From positions 1-20,785 of the IMG/VR virus record IMGVR_UViG_3300025684_000083: DNA of 20,785 nucleotides, one strand, 5' to 3'. This stretch comes from a virus. Shown piece after piece: positions 1 to 12,552 of this stretch (position 1 is its first letter; the number at the start of each line of letters is the position of its first letter). A program made the position numbers and the translations under genes. Under the pieces are notes generated by a model. It saw only the letters and a program-made list of their open reading frames with translations. It was not told where the DNA came from and ran no database searches.

Positions 1-1542
1 TTCTATACCTAATAATCTCATCATCGGACGTATAGCCGTTTGTCCAAATGCTGCGCCAGCAGCTTTAATTAACTTATTAAATTCACTATCAGGCTTAGCG
101 AGCGTACTACTGAATCCCTCGGCCATACCGCTAATGGCTTCGCCTAGATTTGCTATCCCATCAGATCCTGTCATCGATTGAATAAATGTACCTGTCGCAG
201 CTTTTATAGAGGCTGCAACTTCATCCATAGTACTAGCGAGACCTCGAATACCTTTGTTTTTTTCTGCATCTCCTACCATTTCCTCTGCTGCCTTTTGATA
301 TGCTTTAGTAACATCGTCGATTGCTTGAGTTCTAGTTTCAATAGCTAGTAGTGCTTCTGCAGACGAATCTCCAAAAACTGCCATTACTCTTGCTTGTTGT
401 CCGTTTAGTATACTAGTGTTCTTAAGATTTGTCACTAGTGCTTGACTTTGTATAGCAAAATCTTCTGTGCTTATTGAGGCATCACCAAGACTATTAGTTG
501 CAAAGTCAATTAAATCCTGTGCACCATCTCCTAAAAAAGCGATGAGTTTAGGAGCAAATGCTCTAGGATCCATGCCAGTCGCTATCCCTGATAGTATAGC
601 ATCACTTAGCTCTTTACCCTGAGGACCTAGTGTACTTAGAGACTCTGCTAGTTTTGCGAATTGTTGTTGGGTAGCCATGGTTTGCTCTGACAGATAACTT
701 TGTGCTACTGCACCCCTGCGAGCTTCCAAACCTGCTTTTCTTCGTTCTTGTACGTCTTGCCCTGTAATAGCTGCCATTGCTTCGTTAATTCTTAGACTTT
801 CGACCATCTGATCAGTAAACTCACCAGTTTTAAGGTTTCTCAGCCCTTCAGTGCCGACTGTTTGACGTCTAATTTCTAATTCATCTGCTAATACCATAGC
901 CATTTCGTCAGACTTCATTCCAAAGAATCCAAACTGCCTGGTGCCGTCACGCACAGCATTTCCTAAATCTAAAAATCGTTGCATGCCTTGACTTGTGGTG
1001 TCTCCTAGTCCTGCCATCACTGCGCCGTTAGTGCCGACTATTTTACCAAATTGATCAAGTGTAAGTCCTAGACTACCTGCTTGTGCTTGTACTTCAATTA
1101 ACCTGTCGCCAAAGTTAACACCAGTTCTAGCAACTTTATTCATTACTTCGCCTAGTTCTTCAGCGTATCCGAATGCCATGCCAAATTGAAGGCCAAAGTT
1201 TGCCATGCCCATAGCATCAAAAATACGTTTACTGAAAGCACCAGCTTTAGTTTCGTCACCTAATCTCGATATTCCAGCAACCGCTTCGGACGCTCCTCCG
1301 ATATTCATTCGAGAAGTCATTTTACTCAACAAACTTTTTTGTGCAGCATTACCTTGTTCTATACTTCTAGACAAATTATTAACTGCTCGTTGGGTAGAAT
1401 CGCTGCCTGTTTTAACACCACCTAACGCATCACGTATACTTTTAGATACGTCTAATATATCTCGCTGAGTGCCTTCCATAGCAAAATCGGGTACTTCTAT
1501 TGGTACAGGTCTACCTCCTATTGGTATTGAAATTATTGCCAT
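1..1542 (-). CDS. Tape-measure-like tail protein, N-terminal 514 residues (runs off left edge)
   Basis: An uninterrupted minus-strand frame runs from ATG at 1542 to base 1 with no stop, so the C-terminus lies outside the window. The product begins MAIISIPIGGRPVPIEVPDF and is mostly helical in character, rich in Ala, Gly and Gln. A stretch around residues 155-215 (containing LGLTLDQFGKIV and QFGFFGMKSDEM) resembles the repeating tail tape-measure segments of large myoviruses. A tape measure fills the tail tube and sets tail length. Supporting context: a late promoter lies 42 bases upstream, and the divergent neighbour is a gp26/gp51-like pair, a plausible tape-measure chaperone. The ribosome site is weak (GTGAG). 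T4 encodes its tape measure (gp29) on the same strand as 26 and 51; here the gene is flipped. Another large tail protein is possible, so the identity is by composition and context. Confidence 0.68.
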   Translation of the reverse strand, partial: MAIISIPIGGRPVPIEVPDFAMEGTQRDILDVSKSIRDALGGVKTGSDSTQRAVNNLSRSIEQGNAAQKSLLSKMTSRMNIGGASEAVAGISRLGDETKAGAFSKRIFDAMGMANFGLQFGMAFGYAEELGEVMNKVARTGVNFGDRLIEVQAQAGSLGLTLDQFGKIVGTNGAVMAGLGDTTSQGMQRFLDLGNAVRDGTRQFGFFGMKSDEMAMVLADELEIRRQTVGTEGLRNLKTGEFTDQMVESLRINEAMAAITGQDVQERRKAGLEARRGAVAQSYLSEQTMATQQQFAKLAESLSTLGPQGKELSDAILSGIATGMDPRAFAPKLIAFLGDGAQDLIDFATNSLGDASISTEDFAIQSQALVTNLKNTSILNGQQARVMAVFGDSSAEALLAIETRTQAIDDVTKAYQKAAEEMVGDAEKNKGIRGLASTMDEVAASIKAATGTFIQSMTGSDGIANLGEAISGMAEGFSSTLAKPDSEFNKLIKAAGAAFGQTAIRPMMRLLGIE

Positions 1543-1561: not shown

Positions 1562-1569
1562 GATAAATA
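1562..1569 (+). promoter_or_regulatory. Late promoter variant (GATAAATA) for the gp26-like gene
   Basis: Matches the late consensus TATAAATA at seven of eight positions. The predicted start near 1575 gives a leader of about 25 nt before ATG 1601, with a weak AGGCGA ribosome site at 1591-1596. The first-base mismatch suggests it is weaker than the opposing exact match. Confidence 0.5.
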
Positions 1570-1583
1570 CTTTTATATACTGT

Positions 1584-1591
1584 TATTTATA
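1584..1591 (-). promoter_or_regulatory. T4-type late promoter (TATAAATA) for the tape-measure-like gene
   Basis: The minus strand reads TATAAATA exactly, the sequence recognised by the gp55 late sigma factor in T4-like phages. Transcription would start near 1578, giving a leader of about 36 nt before ATG 1542. It overlaps the opposing late promoter at 1562-1569. Confidence 0.72.
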
Positions 1592-1600
1592 GGCGAAAAC

Positions 1601-2455
1601 ATGTCAGATAATCCATTAGCAAATTTCTATCGAAATAAAGAAATATACGTGAAATTACCCACACAAGGTAAATGGTATACCACGCCTCCAAAGCTAACAC
1701 AAGAGGGTGAGATCGGCGTATACCCAATGACATTACAAGATGAAATACGTATGAATATACCTGACAGCTTGTACAACGGTGAGAGTTTATTTGAACTGTT
1801 TCAAAGTATTTGTCCAGACATTGCAGATCCTTACGAAATAGCTATGCCAGATGTAGATGTACTTTTACTAGCAAGTAGAGCTGCAACTTACGATAAAAAA
1901 ATGTCAGTAGAAACACAGTGTACACACTGCGAAACACCAAACAGTTACGAAATTAATCTAGCGCAAGTATTAAGCAATGTTACATTTAACACAGATAAAA
2001 AAGAGATAGAACTACAAGAATTAGTCATCTCTATCAAACCCAACACATTAAAAAGTATATCAGCAAATACACTAAAGACTGTTGAAACAGCCAGAATGTT
2101 ACAAGAAATACAAAATCAAGATAGTACGTTAACTGACGATTTGAAAAAAAGATATGGTGATAGTATACAAATAGCTGCCGCTGCACAATTAGCAATACTA
2201 GCTGATGCGATTGAATACATAAAATTACCAGATGATACAAAAGTTGTAGACATGGAACATATTATACAATGGCTATCTAACAGTAACAAACAAGTTGTCG
2301 ATACACTACAAAAAATATGCGGAGAAGCCAATCAAAACGGAATCTCTAACGAATTTGATTTTGTATGCAACAACGAAGAATGTTTACAAAGTTTCAAAGG
2401 CAGAGTCGAGTTTAATCCAGCTTTTTTTTTCGGCAACAGATTACTAGAGCAGTAA
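1601..2455 (+). CDS. 26: Baseplate hub assembly protein, gp26-like (T4 baseplate family)
   Basis: 284 residues beginning MSDNPLANFYRNKEIYVKLP. The layout resembles the T4 gp26 baseplate family: a conserved N-terminal segment (LPTQGKWY, then YPMTLQDEIRMNIPDSLYNG), followed by a pair of cysteine knuckles that could bind zinc, C107-x2-C110 and C256-x4-C261. In T4, gp26 acts in hub and tail-tube initiation rather than being a major structural part. ATG 1601 is chosen because a late promoter lies 32-39 bases upstream; the frame stays open to 1469, but those extra 44 codons run through both promoters and into the divergent gene. The last codons (AFFFGNRLLEQ) follow a nine-T run that allows a -1 slip into the next frame, giving a second, longer product. 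Family assignment is good; the exact role is inferred from T4. Confidence 0.78.
   Translation: MSDNPLANFYRNKEIYVKLPTQGKWYTTPPKLTQEGEIGVYPMTLQDEIRMNIPDSLYNGESLFELFQSICPDIADPYEIAMPDVDVLLLASRAATYDKKMSVETQCTHCETPNSYEINLAQVLSNVTFNTDKKEIELQELVISIKPNTLKSISANTLKTVETARMLQEIQNQDSTLTDDLKKRYGDSIQIAAAAQLAILADAIEYIKLPDDTKVVDMEHIIQWLSNSNKQVVDTLQKICGEANQNGISNEFDFVCNNEECLQSFKGRVEFNPAFFFGNRLLEQ
2422..2431 (+). promoter_or_regulatory. Probable -1 programmed ribosomal frameshift site (T9 C)
   Basis: The gp26 frame reads GCT TTT TTT TTC. The heptamer T TTT TTC at 2425-2431 is a classical -1 slippery site, because both tRNAs can re-pair one base back. A slip leads into a frame open from CGG 2431 to TAA 2683-2685, bypassing the TAA at 2453-2455. 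Tail-assembly chaperone genes of many phages (lambda G/GT type) use this device beside the tape-measure gene. No strong stimulatory stem is obvious in the next 60 bases, so efficiency cannot be judged. Confidence 0.66.
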
Positions 2456-2685
2456 CTCCTGAAAAAATAAATCAGTTAGTTGAAAGTTATGATCAAGAAC
2501 GCAAAAAAATACGCAAAGTAGTTAATCAAATAGCACTTTATTCCAATGGAAGTTATACAGTTCAAGACTTACATAATATGACAATGGAACAAGTTAAAGA
2601 GATTCAAGAATGTATGCAAGAAAAAGGTGAATTAGAAAAACAAGCAAGAGAACAATCTAAAGGAACTAATCGTAAAACTTTTTAA
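2431..2685 (+). CDS. 51: gp51-like frame without its own start, read as a -1 extension of gp26
   Basis: An 84-codon frame in the -1 phase overlaps the end of gp26. It starts RQQITRAVTPEKINQLVESY, continues with basic and helical sequence (YDQERKKIRKVVNQIALYSN) and ends SKGTNRKTF. There is no ATG, GTG or TTG in frame before ATG 2578, so independent initiation would lose more than half of it. Fusion by -1 slip gives a product of about 361 residues. In T4 gene 51 follows gene 26 directly and encodes a small hub-assembly catalyst, so position and size fit a gp51 equivalent; sequence similarity cannot be confirmed by eye. Alternatives are a non-standard ATT start at 2440 or an independent internal product from ATG 2578. 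Confidence 0.6.
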   Translation, partial: RQQITRAVTPEKINQLVESYDQERKKIRKVVNQIALYSNGSYTVQDLHNMTMEQVKEIQECMQEKGELEKQAREQSKGTNRKTF

Positions 2686-2697
2686 TGTTTCTTCGAA

Positions 2698-2742
2698 GAG
2701 CTAAAGCTCATCGTCATACTCATTTCATTTCGTATGATATTT
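2698..2742 (+). terminator. Possible terminator region after the gp26/gp51 unit
   Basis: Just past the stop at 2685 there is a small hairpin (GAGC-TAAA-GCTC, 2698-2709). It is followed by a six-pair stem TCATAC (2714-2719) with GTATGA (2732-2737), then a T-rich tail. The stems are short and the tail is broken by C, so this is only a candidate. Confidence 0.3.
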
Positions 2743-2819
2743 CTTTCTTAGATATAATTTTTATTATGATTAGTTATTACCCTGTTTTCAGTCGCACTTA
2801 GCTTGTTAAAGCCAAGTAC

Positions 2820-2849
2820 AAAAAAAAAGCTAAAGGTCATTACCCCGCT
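2820..2849 (-). terminator. Intrinsic-terminator-like element, minus strand
   Basis: On the minus strand an imperfect hairpin (arms AGCGGGGT and ACCTT-TA-GCT around an AATG loop, with two G-T pairs and a small bulge) is followed directly by eight further T residues at 2827-2820. It would end minus-strand transcripts that pass the GIY-YIG stop at 3084. That leaves a long 3' untranslated region of about 260 nt, or releases a separate small RNA. Confidence 0.5.
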
Positions 2850-3083
2850 CCAGATCGCTCCGTTATAGTGAAACCTATTGCTAGGCAGAGGCGGTCTTGC
2901 GCTACCCCTTTACTCACTGCTTAAGACGCAGAAACTCCAAATGCTATAACGTCAACATTATTGGATATCCGTGGGTTACAATGGCACAGTAGAGCCCACT
3001 CTTTTGGTTTGTGTCCCTCAGCAAGTTCCGTTGTCTAACAAATTTAATTGCGACTTCTCAATGCTTTTTGTAAAGAGGGTATG
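2850..3083. ncRNA. Gene-free, GC-enriched region with RNA-like folding, unidentified
   Basis: Together with 2686-2849 this is a gap of about 400 bases with no credible protein. By hand count 78 of 160 bases in 2841-3000 are G or C, against 16 of 60 in the gene just before (2461-2520). Perfect arms CGTTATAG (2861-2868) and CTATAACG (2944-2951) enclose two smaller stems, CCTA/TAGG (2874-2885) and GCGGTCTT/AAGACGC (2891-2898 with 2933-2939, one bulged G), giving a three-way-junction layout. A further stem pairs GTGGG (2971-2975) with CCCAC (2995-2999) and extends by wobble pairs on the plus strand. A direct repeat CGCTCC occurs at 2846-2851 and 2855-2860. No tRNA, tmRNA, RNase P, SRP or group I core motif was recognised. 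It could be a small RNA, the structured 3' end of the GIY-YIG mRNA, or an intron remnant. The strand is unresolved. Confidence 0.35.
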
Positions 3084-3512
3084 TTATGACTGGTGTCTGT
3101 TTAGAGATTCTACAAGTGCCTTAGATCCGCCGACGCGGACATTTATTATGCCGTTGTAATATTCATCTGTTTCTAAAACTTTACGATCAAATTGTTCCCT
3201 GGCTTCTAGGTAACTCATTTCGCCTCTGCCTGTGCAGAAGTAAAGTATTTCTCTTGTAAAGTTTTCTGTGCCTAAGTTTTCAACATCTGCGTTTAACTTG
3301 TCACTGCTTCCCCAGTAGGTCTTCCAGTCACTTTCTTTAGTTGAACGCCTTTTGTTTTTTCTGCCTTTGAGTGGTTTTTTAGTTACTTTAAATTGTGCCA
3401 GTTTTTTGCCAATGTACTTTTTGCCGTTCGTGGTATTGGTTATGAGGTATACGAATCCTACGTATTCCTCTGATATCTGTTCAACGAGTTTTCCTTGATA
3501 AGTCCATTGCAT
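3084..3512 (-). CDS. GIY-YIG family endonuclease (homing-type, Seg-like)
   Basis: 142 residues. The N-terminal half carries the hallmark pair of the GIY-YIG nuclease fold as GFVYLI (residues 19-24) and KKYIGKK (31-37). A basic stretch (KPLKGRKNKRRSTK) and the segment DWKTYWGSSDKL, typical of the phage subgroup, follow. Such enzymes cut double-stranded DNA, and in T-even phages the stand-alone Seg proteins spread themselves into intergenic sites. At this size there is little room for a separate DNA-recognition domain, so specificity must lie in the short flanks. It is the last gene of the minus block, 48 bases after the HAD gene, and has its own strong early-type promoter with a very short leader and no clear ribosome site before ATG 3512. 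It could alternatively serve repair or recombination. Confidence 0.8.
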   Translation of the reverse strand: MQWTYQGKLVEQISEEYVGFVYLITNTTNGKKYIGKKLAQFKVTKKPLKGRKNKRRSTKESDWKTYWGSSDKLNADVENLGTENFTREILYFCTGRGEMSYLEAREQFDRKVLETDEYYNGIINVRVGGSKALVESLNRHQS

Positions 3513-3560: not shown

Positions 3561-4256
3561 CTAAATGTACTTCTTTTTTAAGATTTCCCAGGTTTGTTTA
3601 TAACCTCTGTCAATCTGATGAAAATGTGTGCTTGCTTGTGCAGCAGAGTGATCGTTTCCGCCAGGAAAGCAATTGTCTCCAAAGAAGATAGTTCTTGAGT
3701 CTTTGAAGTCGTCGAGTACTTGTCCTTTATCACAGCCTATAGGAAAAATATCTAAACTAGTTTCTCCGGCAACTTGTGCAACAACATCATCAAACTGTTC
3801 ATTGAATGCAAGTGCTACTATTTCTCTAGCATGATTGTGTTCTTCCCATTCTACATATTGAGCACGTTGTTGCCAATCAGCATTGCGCCCGCAAATACTA
3901 AAGTTGGCAGTGCCTATTCTTTGTTCAATATGGTTACCAGTTTTTTCTGAATACTCGATTCTGTCAAGCTGATCTTCTAAAAATTTATATTGCTCTTTTG
4001 ATAGACTCCATGTGTTTCTACGTTGTTCTTGTGCACCAACAAACATGTGATTACCGCTACAATGATACACCCTACTAAATGTATTAGTGAGTGTTAAACC
4101 AATCTGTTCTAGTGTTTTAGGTCTATCGCTGCCTGTTACAATTATACAGTGATGATTGCAAATAAAATCCAACATAAACTTTTCAAATTCGGGATCGATA
4201 GGTTTACGTGCATCTGTAAGTGTACCGTCTACATCAAAAAGGAACTTGGTCGTCAT
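3561..4256 (-). CDS. HAD-superfamily protein resembling eukaryotic-type phosphomannomutase
   Basis: 231 residues. HAD motif I is FLFDVDGTLT with D8 (nucleophile) and D10 (general acid/base). Motif II is IVTGSD (39-44). K177 in the segment DIFPIGCDKGQVL and the acidic motif FFGDNCFPGGNDH (191-203) supply the remaining catalytic and magnesium positions. The cap segment IEQRIGTANFSICGR (110-124) matches the substrate-binding arginines of the eukaryotic PMM family, which interconverts mannose-6-phosphate and mannose-1-phosphate. Length is close to that family's roughly 250. A ribosome site (AGGAG, 4271-4267) precedes ATG 4256, which overlaps the end of the upstream gene by 23 bases. All key residues look intact, so activity is plausible, as a mutase or a sugar/nucleotide phosphatase. 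Its presence in a recombination operon is unexplained. Confidence 0.75.
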   Translation of the reverse strand: MTTKFLFDVDGTLTDARKPIDPEFEKFMLDFICNHHCIIVTGSDRPKTLEQIGLTLTNTFSRVYHCSGNHMFVGAQEQRRNTWSLSKEQYKFLEDQLDRIEYSEKTGNHIEQRIGTANFSICGRNADWQQRAQYVEWEEHNHAREIVALAFNEQFDDVVAQVAGETSLDIFPIGCDKGQVLDDFKDSRTIFFGDNCFPGGNDHSAAQASTHFHQIDRGYKQTWEILKKKYI

Positions 4257-9566: not shown

Positions 9567-9871
9567 TGGCAACTCCTAAGTATAGACAAAGTAGTAATTA
9601 TGCAAATACTGCTGTGAATAGAAAGTATTTGGAATTATATAATCCTACTGTTACTTCTAAGAATTTAAACTCAGCAAAACGAAAGCTAGTTATACAGCAA
9701 AAATATAATAGACGTCCTGACTTACTTGCACACGATTTATACGGTAATAGTAGACTATGGTGGATATTTGTACACTACAATAGAGATGCAATCAAAGACC
9801 CGATAATGGACTTTACCAGTGGAAAGATAATTGAAGTACCAAAAACATTCAATCCTTCGGGAGTTAATTAA
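9566..9871 (+). CDS. 53: Baseplate wedge protein gp53-like (short form)
   Basis: 101 residues. The C-terminal half, RRPDLLAHDLYGNSRLWWIF followed by HYNRDAIKDPIMDFTSGKII, is the signature of the gp53/LysM-like baseplate family, in which gp53 clamps neighbouring wedges together. T4 gp53 is about 196 residues, so this is a minimal version. A strong AGGAGGG (9551-9557) precedes ATG 9566. The gene overlaps the previous and next genes by one base each, indicating coupled translation within the baseplate run. Confidence 0.75.
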   Translation: MATPKYRQSSNYANTAVNRKYLELYNPTVTSKNLNSAKRKLVIQQKYNRRPDLLAHDLYGNSRLWWIFVHYNRDAIKDPIMDFTSGKIIEVPKTFNPSGVN

Positions 9872-12552
9872 TGGCCGCAACAAATTTCTACGAAGAAAAT
9901 ATACTCAACAAATTTGCCAATTACACATATAATTGGAAGATTCACATGGTGCATCCTGCAGCAGCTACTAAATTTGATGATAATATAAAAGCAGGTCGTA
10001 CTATTGTATTAGCTGACAGCGGAGTTGAAACTGAAATCAATATCGAAAGCGTTGAGCAGAATATGGTACTGGCATTCTCAAAAGCAGATAGAAATAGTGT
10101 AGCTAACCAATTTAATATCCGTCTAGTAGAACCTGGTGGTGTTACACTGTTTAATAGAATACTATTTGCTGCTAGAAAGTTAGATATTGAAAATCACCTA
10201 AAAGCAACATACTTGTTAGAACTTAACTTTAAAGGATATACTGACGATGGTGTAGCTGTTAGTAATATAATAGGACCATATTATTACAGTTGTATATTAA
10301 CAGATTTAACTTTAGACTACAGAGACGGCGGGACTACGTATGTTGGGAATTTTATCGAAGTAGAAAATGATGCATACAGTAAAGTTAGTTTGCATTTGCC
10401 ATCAGATATAGATGTAGAAGCTAGTACATATGGTGATTTTTTAAACGCATTTCAAGAAAAAGTCCAACAACAAGAATTACACAGAGTAAGTTCTAGTACT
10501 TCTCAGATTTTTCCTAATAGATATGAATTTGTATTAGATCAAGAAGTTAGCCATTGGGGAGATTGGGAATTTGGCGCTACACAAGGCATAGACGATCAGA
10601 CAGGCACTAGAGCAATAAGTGTCAGTGGTAACGGAACACTAAAATTTAATTTTCCACAAGGTACAAGTATTGTTGCAGCACTTGCTACTGCATTATATCA
10701 AACGACAGAATTTCAAAAGCTGCCTATATTCGACGGTAGTAGTGGTAAACAAAATCCTGAAGACGGGCAAGCTCGACCTGAAAAATTATCAAAACTTTCC
10801 AGCTGGATGAAACTCGCAACAGATGTTGCATATCAGAACTATGATCCGTTACGTAAGCATTATCAAAAATTTATAAAGTATACAGTAGGACAATATATTA
10901 CCCCAGAACTTATACACGATCCAGTGAGTTATCTAGAACTTTATAAAACCAAAACACTACAACAAGAAAGACTCAAAAACATTGTGCGCAATGGGCTATT
11001 GAGGAAAAAATTCGACTACACTTATACAGGTTTAAACACTGAAGTATTAAACCTAGATATACAACTTAACAATACCTACTATCAATTACAAGCATTAAAC
11101 CACGGTGCTTTGCAATACAGCGATCAACTGTTTGCAAAAATAAATTCACGACTACAGCCGGTAGCTGATAAGATCGGAACGTTAAATGAGATAAAAGGAA
11201 AAATAGATAAACTTATCCGTGAAAAAAGCAAATTAGAAAGGGATCTTGGATCACTTAGTGATCACCCGTTGCATGACAACCCTACACTGCGAGATAGATT
11301 ATTAAATGATATAGCTGTTATTAACGAAACAACAGAACAACTGGGGCAAGAACAAGCTCGTGTTGAAGATGAAAAATCCAAACTAAGTGAACAATTCTTA
11401 AAGGATAATCAAGTTACGCCTAGACTTCAACGTTTACAAAATAGATACATTACTCAAAGTGATGTAGTAAGTACTGCTGCTGTTGATAGAGCATTTAACG
11501 AAGCAGATGATTTGCCATTAACTTTTATAGCAAATGCTGTTAATAGTAAAGCTACTGCTGGACCCGACAAGGGAGATAGTGCAGGTACAGTTATGTTAGG
11601 CGCAGTTGAAATTAACCTTAATAGTTTAGCAGATCTAGCAACCATGATAATTACAGTTAGAGGTGATCCTTATTGGCTTGGTAAACCCAAAGGCGCAGGT
11701 AATAAAAATAATCAAAATAATGCTGAATATACCAGAGGAGGCAATAGCTTTTTCTTAGACTTAAATTTTCCAACTTATCCAGAAGATAACACAGGACTAG
11801 TAAACATACCAGAAAAAGATTTTGGTATAACAGGATTGTATAGAGTAACACAAGTGCAAGCAAGATACCAAGATGGACAATTTATAATGATGTTAGATAC
11901 ATTTAGAGATACTAATGCCAATGTTGGATTGGTATTATCTGAGCTTACATCTGGTCAAATTGATCTCAATGAATATAATCAACTTGCTGACAGATTTGTC
12001 AATGAAGAACAAGGCGACGGCGGCAGCGAAGGATCAACTACCAGCACTCCGAGCGGTAGTGGCGTTGGCGAATTTGAAAACGGAACTGGGTCTGGAGTAG
12101 TTACACAAGCGCAAAGCGGTATTAGAAATCAAGCAGTAGATCCCAGTGTGGTCAGGATACTAGAAACAGCTGGTATAAACAGTGGTGTAAATGTTGTTGT
12201 TACCAGTGGCGGTCAATCAAGCAGTGGCCCTAATAGAACAGGAAGTCACAGACACGATAACGGTATGGCAGCAGATGTTCAGTTATTTGTTCCAGGAAGA
12301 TCGACACCATTGGATACCAACAACCCCAATGACTTACCCATAATACAAAACTTTATAAACCAAAGTCGTTTAGCGGGTGCAACCGGAATAGGCGCAGGCA
12401 ACGGATACATGGGAGACAATACATTTCATATCGACCGTTCTTATCCAGAAAGAGGGTATACACAATACTGGGGCGGCCCATTAGACAATGGTACGTTTAG
12501 ATCTAGAAACGCACCAAAATGGTTAGCAGATATAGCACAAGGAAGAGCATAG
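9871..12552 (+). CDS. Large baseplate hub protein (gp27-like role) with C-terminal M15-type peptidase domain
   Basis: 893 residues. The N-terminal 190 or so are beta-rich with no motif I can name (begins MAATNFYEENILNKFANYTY). Residues about 388-520 are predicted coiled coil (KIDKLIREKSKLERDLGSL). Residues about 585-690 look like a hub domain (MIITVRGDPYWLG, then GLYRVTQVQARYQDGQFIMM). A Gly/Ser/Thr-rich linker (about 715-742) leads to a C-terminal domain with the M15 zinc-peptidase pattern: GSHRHDNGMAAD, where H795 and D802 are zinc ligands, and FHID with H853 and D855. M15 enzymes cut peptidoglycan stem peptides. Position just before the gp5-like spike supports the hub role. T4 carries its cell-wall enzyme, a lysozyme, on gp5 instead. 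The peptidase domain is well supported; equivalence to gp27 is by context. Confidence 0.72.
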   Translation: MAATNFYEENILNKFANYTYNWKIHMVHPAAATKFDDNIKAGRTIVLADSGVETEINIESVEQNMVLAFSKADRNSVANQFNIRLVEPGGVTLFNRILFAARKLDIENHLKATYLLELNFKGYTDDGVAVSNIIGPYYYSCILTDLTLDYRDGGTTYVGNFIEVENDAYSKVSLHLPSDIDVEASTYGDFLNAFQEKVQQQELHRVSSSTSQIFPNRYEFVLDQEVSHWGDWEFGATQGIDDQTGTRAISVSGNGTLKFNFPQGTSIVAALATALYQTTEFQKLPIFDGSSGKQNPEDGQARPEKLSKLSSWMKLATDVAYQNYDPLRKHYQKFIKYTVGQYITPELIHDPVSYLELYKTKTLQQERLKNIVRNGLLRKKFDYTYTGLNTEVLNLDIQLNNTYYQLQALNHGALQYSDQLFAKINSRLQPVADKIGTLNEIKGKIDKLIREKSKLERDLGSLSDHPLHDNPTLRDRLLNDIAVINETTEQLGQEQARVEDEKSKLSEQFLKDNQVTPRLQRLQNRYITQSDVVSTAAVDRAFNEADDLPLTFIANAVNSKATAGPDKGDSAGTVMLGAVEINLNSLADLATMIITVRGDPYWLGKPKGAGNKNNQNNAEYTRGGNSFFLDLNFPTYPEDNTGLVNIPEKDFGITGLYRVTQVQARYQDGQFIMMLDTFRDTNANVGLVLSELTSGQIDLNEYNQLADRFVNEEQGDGGSEGSTTSTPSGSGVGEFENGTGSGVVTQAQSGIRNQAVDPSVVRILETAGINSGVNVVVTSGGQSSSGPNRTGSHRHDNGMAADVQLFVPGRSTPLDTNNPNDLPIIQNFINQSRLAGATGIGAGNGYMGDNTFHIDRSYPERGYTQYWGGPLDNGTFRSRNAPKWLADIAQGRA

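Follow-up and report, generated by a model that had tools for sequence, protein, structure and literature searches.

A single late gene in the marine T4-like phage DNA studied here very probably (we estimate about 0.88) gives rise to two tail-assembly chaperones, a short and a long form resembling the lambda G/GT pair, by means of a -1 frameshift near its 3' end. The DNA, hereafter the window, is the whole stretch of 20,785 nucleotides that was analysed, a 20.8 kb IMG/VR fragment; for it, the ribosomal frameshifting, the ratio of the two products and their chaperone role are what we infer from computational analysis. The slip signal is kept in almost all of the T4 relatives examined, with the exception of T4's closest relatives, which have two separate genes. 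Frameshifting in tail chaperones is a classical phenomenon, and gp26 and gp51 are reportedly the T4-like chaperone genes treated by Vladimirov, Gautam and Davidson in 2022. An earlier account presents the lambda gpG/gpGT frameshift as a feature that long-tailed phages widely share, "except T4" (PMC5009743), and a review of T4 counts gp26 and gp51 among the chaperones of hub assembly (PMC3004832). The 2022 work, to judge by its title, identified T4-like chaperone genes and argued for a mechanism other than frameshifting (PMID 34826709); as cited by PRFect (PMC10885494), it described a short gene and a longer fusion gene in some T4-like phages, and in the Adele paper (PMC12846349) it is the reference given for polyT slip signals in the chaperone genes of T4-like phages.

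Organization of the locus

The features of the locus are as follows.

1..1542, minus strand: divergent structural gene that runs off the window, a tape-measure candidate
1562..1569, plus strand: T4-type late-promoter-like motif GATAAATA upstream of gp26, with 0-1 mismatch in 19/19 clusters of the window's clade
1584..1591, minus strand: T4-type late-promoter-like motif TATAAATA facing the divergent gene, exact in 19/19 clusters of the window's clade
1601..2455, plus strand: gp26 ORF in the 0 frame, 284 aa, candidate short tail-assembly chaperone
2422..2431, plus strand: T9C run with the -1 slip heptamer T TTT TTC (2425-2431)
2453..2455, plus strand: 0-frame stop TAA of gp26, 7 codons past the slip site
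2431..2685, plus strand: -1 frame of 84 codons and a stop, putative equivalent of the T4 gp51 C-terminal extension, expected only within a 26-51 fusion

The 3' end of gp26 reads, in the 0 frame, GCT TTT TTT TTC GGC AAC AGA TTA CTA GAG CAG TAA, and the nine Ts at 2422-2430 followed by C at 2431 place T TTT TTC in the phase that a slip heptamer needs. No stop interrupts the -1 frame from 2416 up to its own at 2683-2685, and 49 codons separate the slip site from the earliest ATG, GTG or TTG of that frame beyond it, the ATG at 2578. Both points had been made in a preliminary description of this DNA, which saw in the T9C run an ideal slip site and in the -1 frame a start-less stretch of about 49 codons open to 2685, and both proved correct. 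The feature that it placed at 2405-2685 is likewise real, with the small correction that this interval begins 20 bases before the slip heptamer. As in G/GT-type genes, the -1 frame extends beyond the 0-frame stop and has no conserved start of its own.

The protein belongs to the Pfam family PF12322 (T4_baseplate), which it matches with E=7e-10 and 39.3 bits against a curated cut-off of 24.5 (36.1 bits in the genome search), and it matches the baseplate hub family phrog_150 with E=2e-13. Its structure model (pLDDT 84) finds matches in BFVD among the hub proteins of T4-like baseplates; a Foldseek search of the PDB with gp26 gave no match.

If the locus works as we propose, most ribosomes would read gp26 to the stop at 2455 and make the short form. 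A minority would shift back by one base at T TTT TTC as both tRNAs pair anew with TTT TTT, and would then continue to 2685. Their product would be a 26-51 fusion, about 361 residues long, that carries an additional helical domain at its C terminus. On the model of lambda gpG/gpGT, many copies of the short form would coat the tape-measure protein, a few copies of the long form would recruit the tail-tube subunit, and neither form would remain in the virion.

Conservation of the slip site among relatives

The comparison covered 172 gp26 loci, grouped into 102 clusters at about 90% DNA identity, and a control set of 194 other ORFs from the same loci. A canonical A/T -1 heptamer within the last 20 gp26 codons, followed by 56-85 open -1 codons, was present in 101/102 clusters and in 1/194 control ORFs, and the combination of slip site and open frame is therefore not a product of chance. 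The heptamer is TTTTTTC in 90 of these clusters, AAATTTT in 7, TTTTTTT in 3 and TTTTTTA in 1; the 7 clusters with A AAT TTT and the 4 with T TTT TTT or T TTT TTA all retain tandem-slip sites. The first 10 relatives recovered, which are 51-100% identical, all keep the T9C and the -1 frame. Among the jumbo phages, T TTT TTC and an open -1 frame occur in PA5oct, Atu_ph07, Phosso, 121Q, RaK2, GAP32, SCTP-2 and Vibrio 2.275.O; a ninth, XacN1, has T TTT TTT instead, with its -1 frame open. The same layout is found in Cr30, in the KVP40-like R10Z, in Aeromonas phage AS-szw and in the loci of two further searches. The expectation that the slip site and the missing start would be conserved in related loci, and with it the lambda G/GT-like layout that had been proposed, is thus confirmed: the slip site and the start-less -1 frame are real features of these genomes.

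The length of the T run bears on whether the ribosome or the polymerase does the slipping. An RNA polymerase that added or dropped Ts on the T9 run would produce some mRNAs that read into the -1 frame, instead of or beside frameshifting. Nine Ts is a length at which bacterial polymerases are known to slip, and T9 is carried by all 19 clusters of the window's clade. Yet the run is T6 in 72 clusters, T7 in 3 and T5 in 7 (in these last it sits inside AAATTTTT), and such loci keep a canonical heptamer and the same layout of frames, although runs of T5-T7 are too short for efficient polymerase slippage; AAATTTT, moreover, is a tandem-slippage site for tRNAs and not a homopolymer. The T6 and AAATTTT sites of the relatives speak against polymerase slippage as the mechanism in general, and we consider it an unlikely explanation. 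In the clade where the run reaches T9, the greater length might make the shift more efficient, either by offering additional slip registers or by letting the polymerase slip to some extent.

A second alternative, to which we give even less credence, treats the -1 frame as a small gene of its own, translated by independent or coupled initiation, with ribosomes re-initiating at or near the gp26 stop. A start codon does lie within 5 codons of the slip site in 43/101 clusters, in many cases close to the stop or sharing bases with it (ATGA, TAATG), and gp51 of S-PM2 is annotated as just such a separately started gene. Within the window's clade, however, the first start falls anywhere from codon 3 to codon 58 with no position in common, 17 clusters overall have no start within 30 codons, and a Shine-Dalgarno-like sequence accompanies the start in only 6/101 clusters. 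The conserved tail begins directly after the slip site, the two parts are joined in frame in T4 gp51, and independent initiation would leave the near-invariant heptamer unexplained.

Finally, a sequencing or assembly error that split one continuous ORF, a danger that the preliminary description had itself raised and to which homopolymers are prone in some technologies, is rejected, for independent contigs with 51-95% protein identity share the T9C, distant loci and finished isolate genomes show the same architecture with T6, T7 or AAATTTT (T6 in the finished genomes), and the 0-frame stop falls 1-16 codons after the slip site throughout the relatives.

One gp26 cluster has no canonical heptamer: that of the Ackermannviridae Vibrio phage 1.255.O (L211), which has ACTTTTTCGC at this place and a -1 frame that is still open. 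Its TAATG overlap suggests coupled initiation in that phage.

Constraint on the slip site and on the -1 frame

The codon that precedes T TTT TTN ends in T in every case, while the residue that it encodes varies (N, F, S, A, D, H, R or Y); the constraint is therefore on the nucleotides. Elsewhere in these genes TTT TTC accounts for 9/47 Phe-Phe pairs. Judged from these comparisons, the conservation of the slip site is not something that the amino acids alone require.

The -1 frame has the properties of coding sequence. Over the tail, each locus has no stops in this frame and 6-9 in each of the other two. Since synonymous sites were saturated and qualifying pairs few, dN/dS was uninformative, and codon-position counts were used in its place: the differences among four relatives number 169, 90 and 258 at positions 1, 2 and 3 of the -1-frame codons, a coding signature. 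The tails of relatives can be aligned over most of their length, and a helical domain is predicted for the window's tail (pLDDT 82).

In the window's clade neither a conserved RNA structure downstream of the slip site (mean z -0.3) nor a Shine-Dalgarno-like stimulator near it was found. Strong RNA stems are predicted just after the slip site in three other loci, L013 (Atu_ph07; z -7.0), L076 (-4.2) and L085 (-4.5); these could possibly be lineage-specific frameshift stimulators.

Relationship to T4 gp26 and gp51

T4 gp26 and gp51 both match PF12322, so that T4 has two copies of the family; S-PM2, eight jumbo phage records and the window (as a 20.8 kb fragment) have one each, and SCTP-2 has none at the E limit of 0.01. 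The T-even arrangement of a separate short gene 26 and a long gene 51 was accordingly found neither in the window fragment nor in S-PM2 or the eight jumbo phages. From this difference in copy number it follows that the short product, 26, should be the counterpart of T4 gp26 and the 26-51 fusion the counterpart of all of T4 gp51.

Profile comparison agrees with such a correspondence. The cyanophage frameshift product matches T4 gp51 at 99.2% (E 7e-20), with an alignment that crosses the junction (QSFF-RISMFYNTLENYYRTNF). The fusion profile of the jumbo phages matches that of the cyanophages at 99.0%, and that of the window's clade matches that of the jumbo phages at 100%. By way of these linked profiles the frameshift product combines a gp26-like domain and the gp51 C-terminal extension in one polypeptide. 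Taken alone, the window's -1 tail has no detectable similarity to T4 gp51 in profile comparison (0.5%), and a direct tblastn search of phage genomes with the -1-frame tail returned no hits; profile comparisons with single T4 sequences were weak, and an alignment that mixed distant sequences yielded no pattern fit for searching. The window's tail is too diverged for a direct match to T4, and the homology with gp51 therefore rests on linked steps. The search of the tail against gp51 that the preliminary description had proposed gave no direct match, the link needing intermediates, and its view of the -1 frame as gp51-like holds for the C-terminal extension, to which the frame appears to correspond, and not for the whole of gp51.

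In an unrooted tree of the shared domain, whose branches are long, the gp26 and gp51 proteins of the T-even phages fall into one group (97/94) from which every frameshifting form is excluded, which suggests that an ancestral frameshifting gene was duplicated and fused in frame. As frameshifting forms are present in two lineages of the Straboviridae (R10Z and AS-szw), the simplest reading is that the gene was duplicated near T4 and the frameshift then hard-wired, and it is from this that we infer the polarity of the change. A single frameshifting gp26-type gene is probably the ancestral and near-universal state in the T4 superfamily (cyanophages, jumbo phages, KVP40-like phages and Aeromonas Straboviridae). 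The exception would be T4 with the phages nearest to it, in which the gene was duplicated and the frameshift product hard-wired as gp51.

Neighboring genes and other features of the window

The divergent gene matches the virion structural protein family phrog_14121 (E=2e-8), and about 45 loci have a homologue of it, 570-820 aa long, at the corresponding position. The depositors of RaK2 noted a tape-measure similarity for its counterpart, and Cr30 has an annotated tape-measure gene just downstream of its gp26-type gene. No homology with T4 gp29 was detected. The neighbor's proposed tape-measure-like character is suggested by its position, its length and the depositors' note, and not by kinship with the T4 protein. 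Over the whole window late-promoter motifs occur at the frequency expected by chance; therefore only the conserved position of the two listed above carries weight.

On the minus strand at 2750-3090, just 3' of a SegE-like gene, lies a candidate structured RNA of about 340 nt, with 59 predicted pairs, 16 of which show changes on both sides that preserve the pair. Its alifold energy is far below that of column-shuffled controls (z -25 on the minus strand, -9.5 on the plus strand). It has no Rfam match even at E<=1, and none in the phage genome collection. In window 2686-3512 and 80 IMG/VR loci (L212-L291), a distance of about 150-180 nt separates the motif from the end of the SegE-like GIY-YIG frame in 78/81 cases, the others being cut by contig ends, and the motif is convergent to the gp26 gene in 67/81, the others extending only a short way in that direction. 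At the DNA level the motif is about 90-92% identical in loci whose gp26 proteins share only about 50% identity (L007-L009, L049), which suggests recent exchange or strong constraint.

The adjoining gene (3084-3512, minus strand) encodes a SegE-type GIY-YIG homing endonuclease (PF19835, E=4e-36). At 3561-4256, also on the minus strand, lies a gene for a HAD-type protein that matches eukaryotic phosphomannomutase (PF03332, E=2e-20), which is unexpected in a phage. At 12000-12550 on the plus strand, the end of the gene at 9871-12552 encodes a C-terminal SGGQSSSGPNRTGSHRHDNGMAADV that by eye resembles a peptidase M15-type motif.

Comparison with known systems

Were the proposed history true, T4 would cease to be the standing exception to the G/GT rule. 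The reading of the gene as a two-form chaperone would bring most T4-like phages under the frameshift rule of lambda. For T4 gp26 and gp51, whose functions have been described only vaguely ("hub assembly", "catalyst"), it would offer a testable prediction, namely that they are short and long tail-tube chaperones. Public annotation would also be corrected, the -1 frame having been missed in PA5oct and RaK2 and called a separate small gene in S-PM2, 121Q and GAP32.

The window's gene resembles lambda gpG/gpGT in that one gene, through a -1 frameshift near its 3' end, would yield a short form and a long form with a C-terminal extension. It differs in that it belongs to the PF12322 family, in its slip sequence T TTT TTC, and in that the candidate tape-measure gene is divergent and not downstream. 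The chaperone locus of the Vandenendeviridae and Andersonviridae (PMC12846349) belongs to other phage families and has another slip motif. T4 gp26 and gp51 are of the same protein family as the window's gene, gp26 being similar to the short form and gp51 to the fusion, C-terminal extension included. In T4, however, each has a gene of its own, the two lying on opposite strands; the T4 gp51 gene is an in-frame fusion, and T4 gp26 ends in GAGTTCTTTGAGTTACTATAA, without T TTT TTC.
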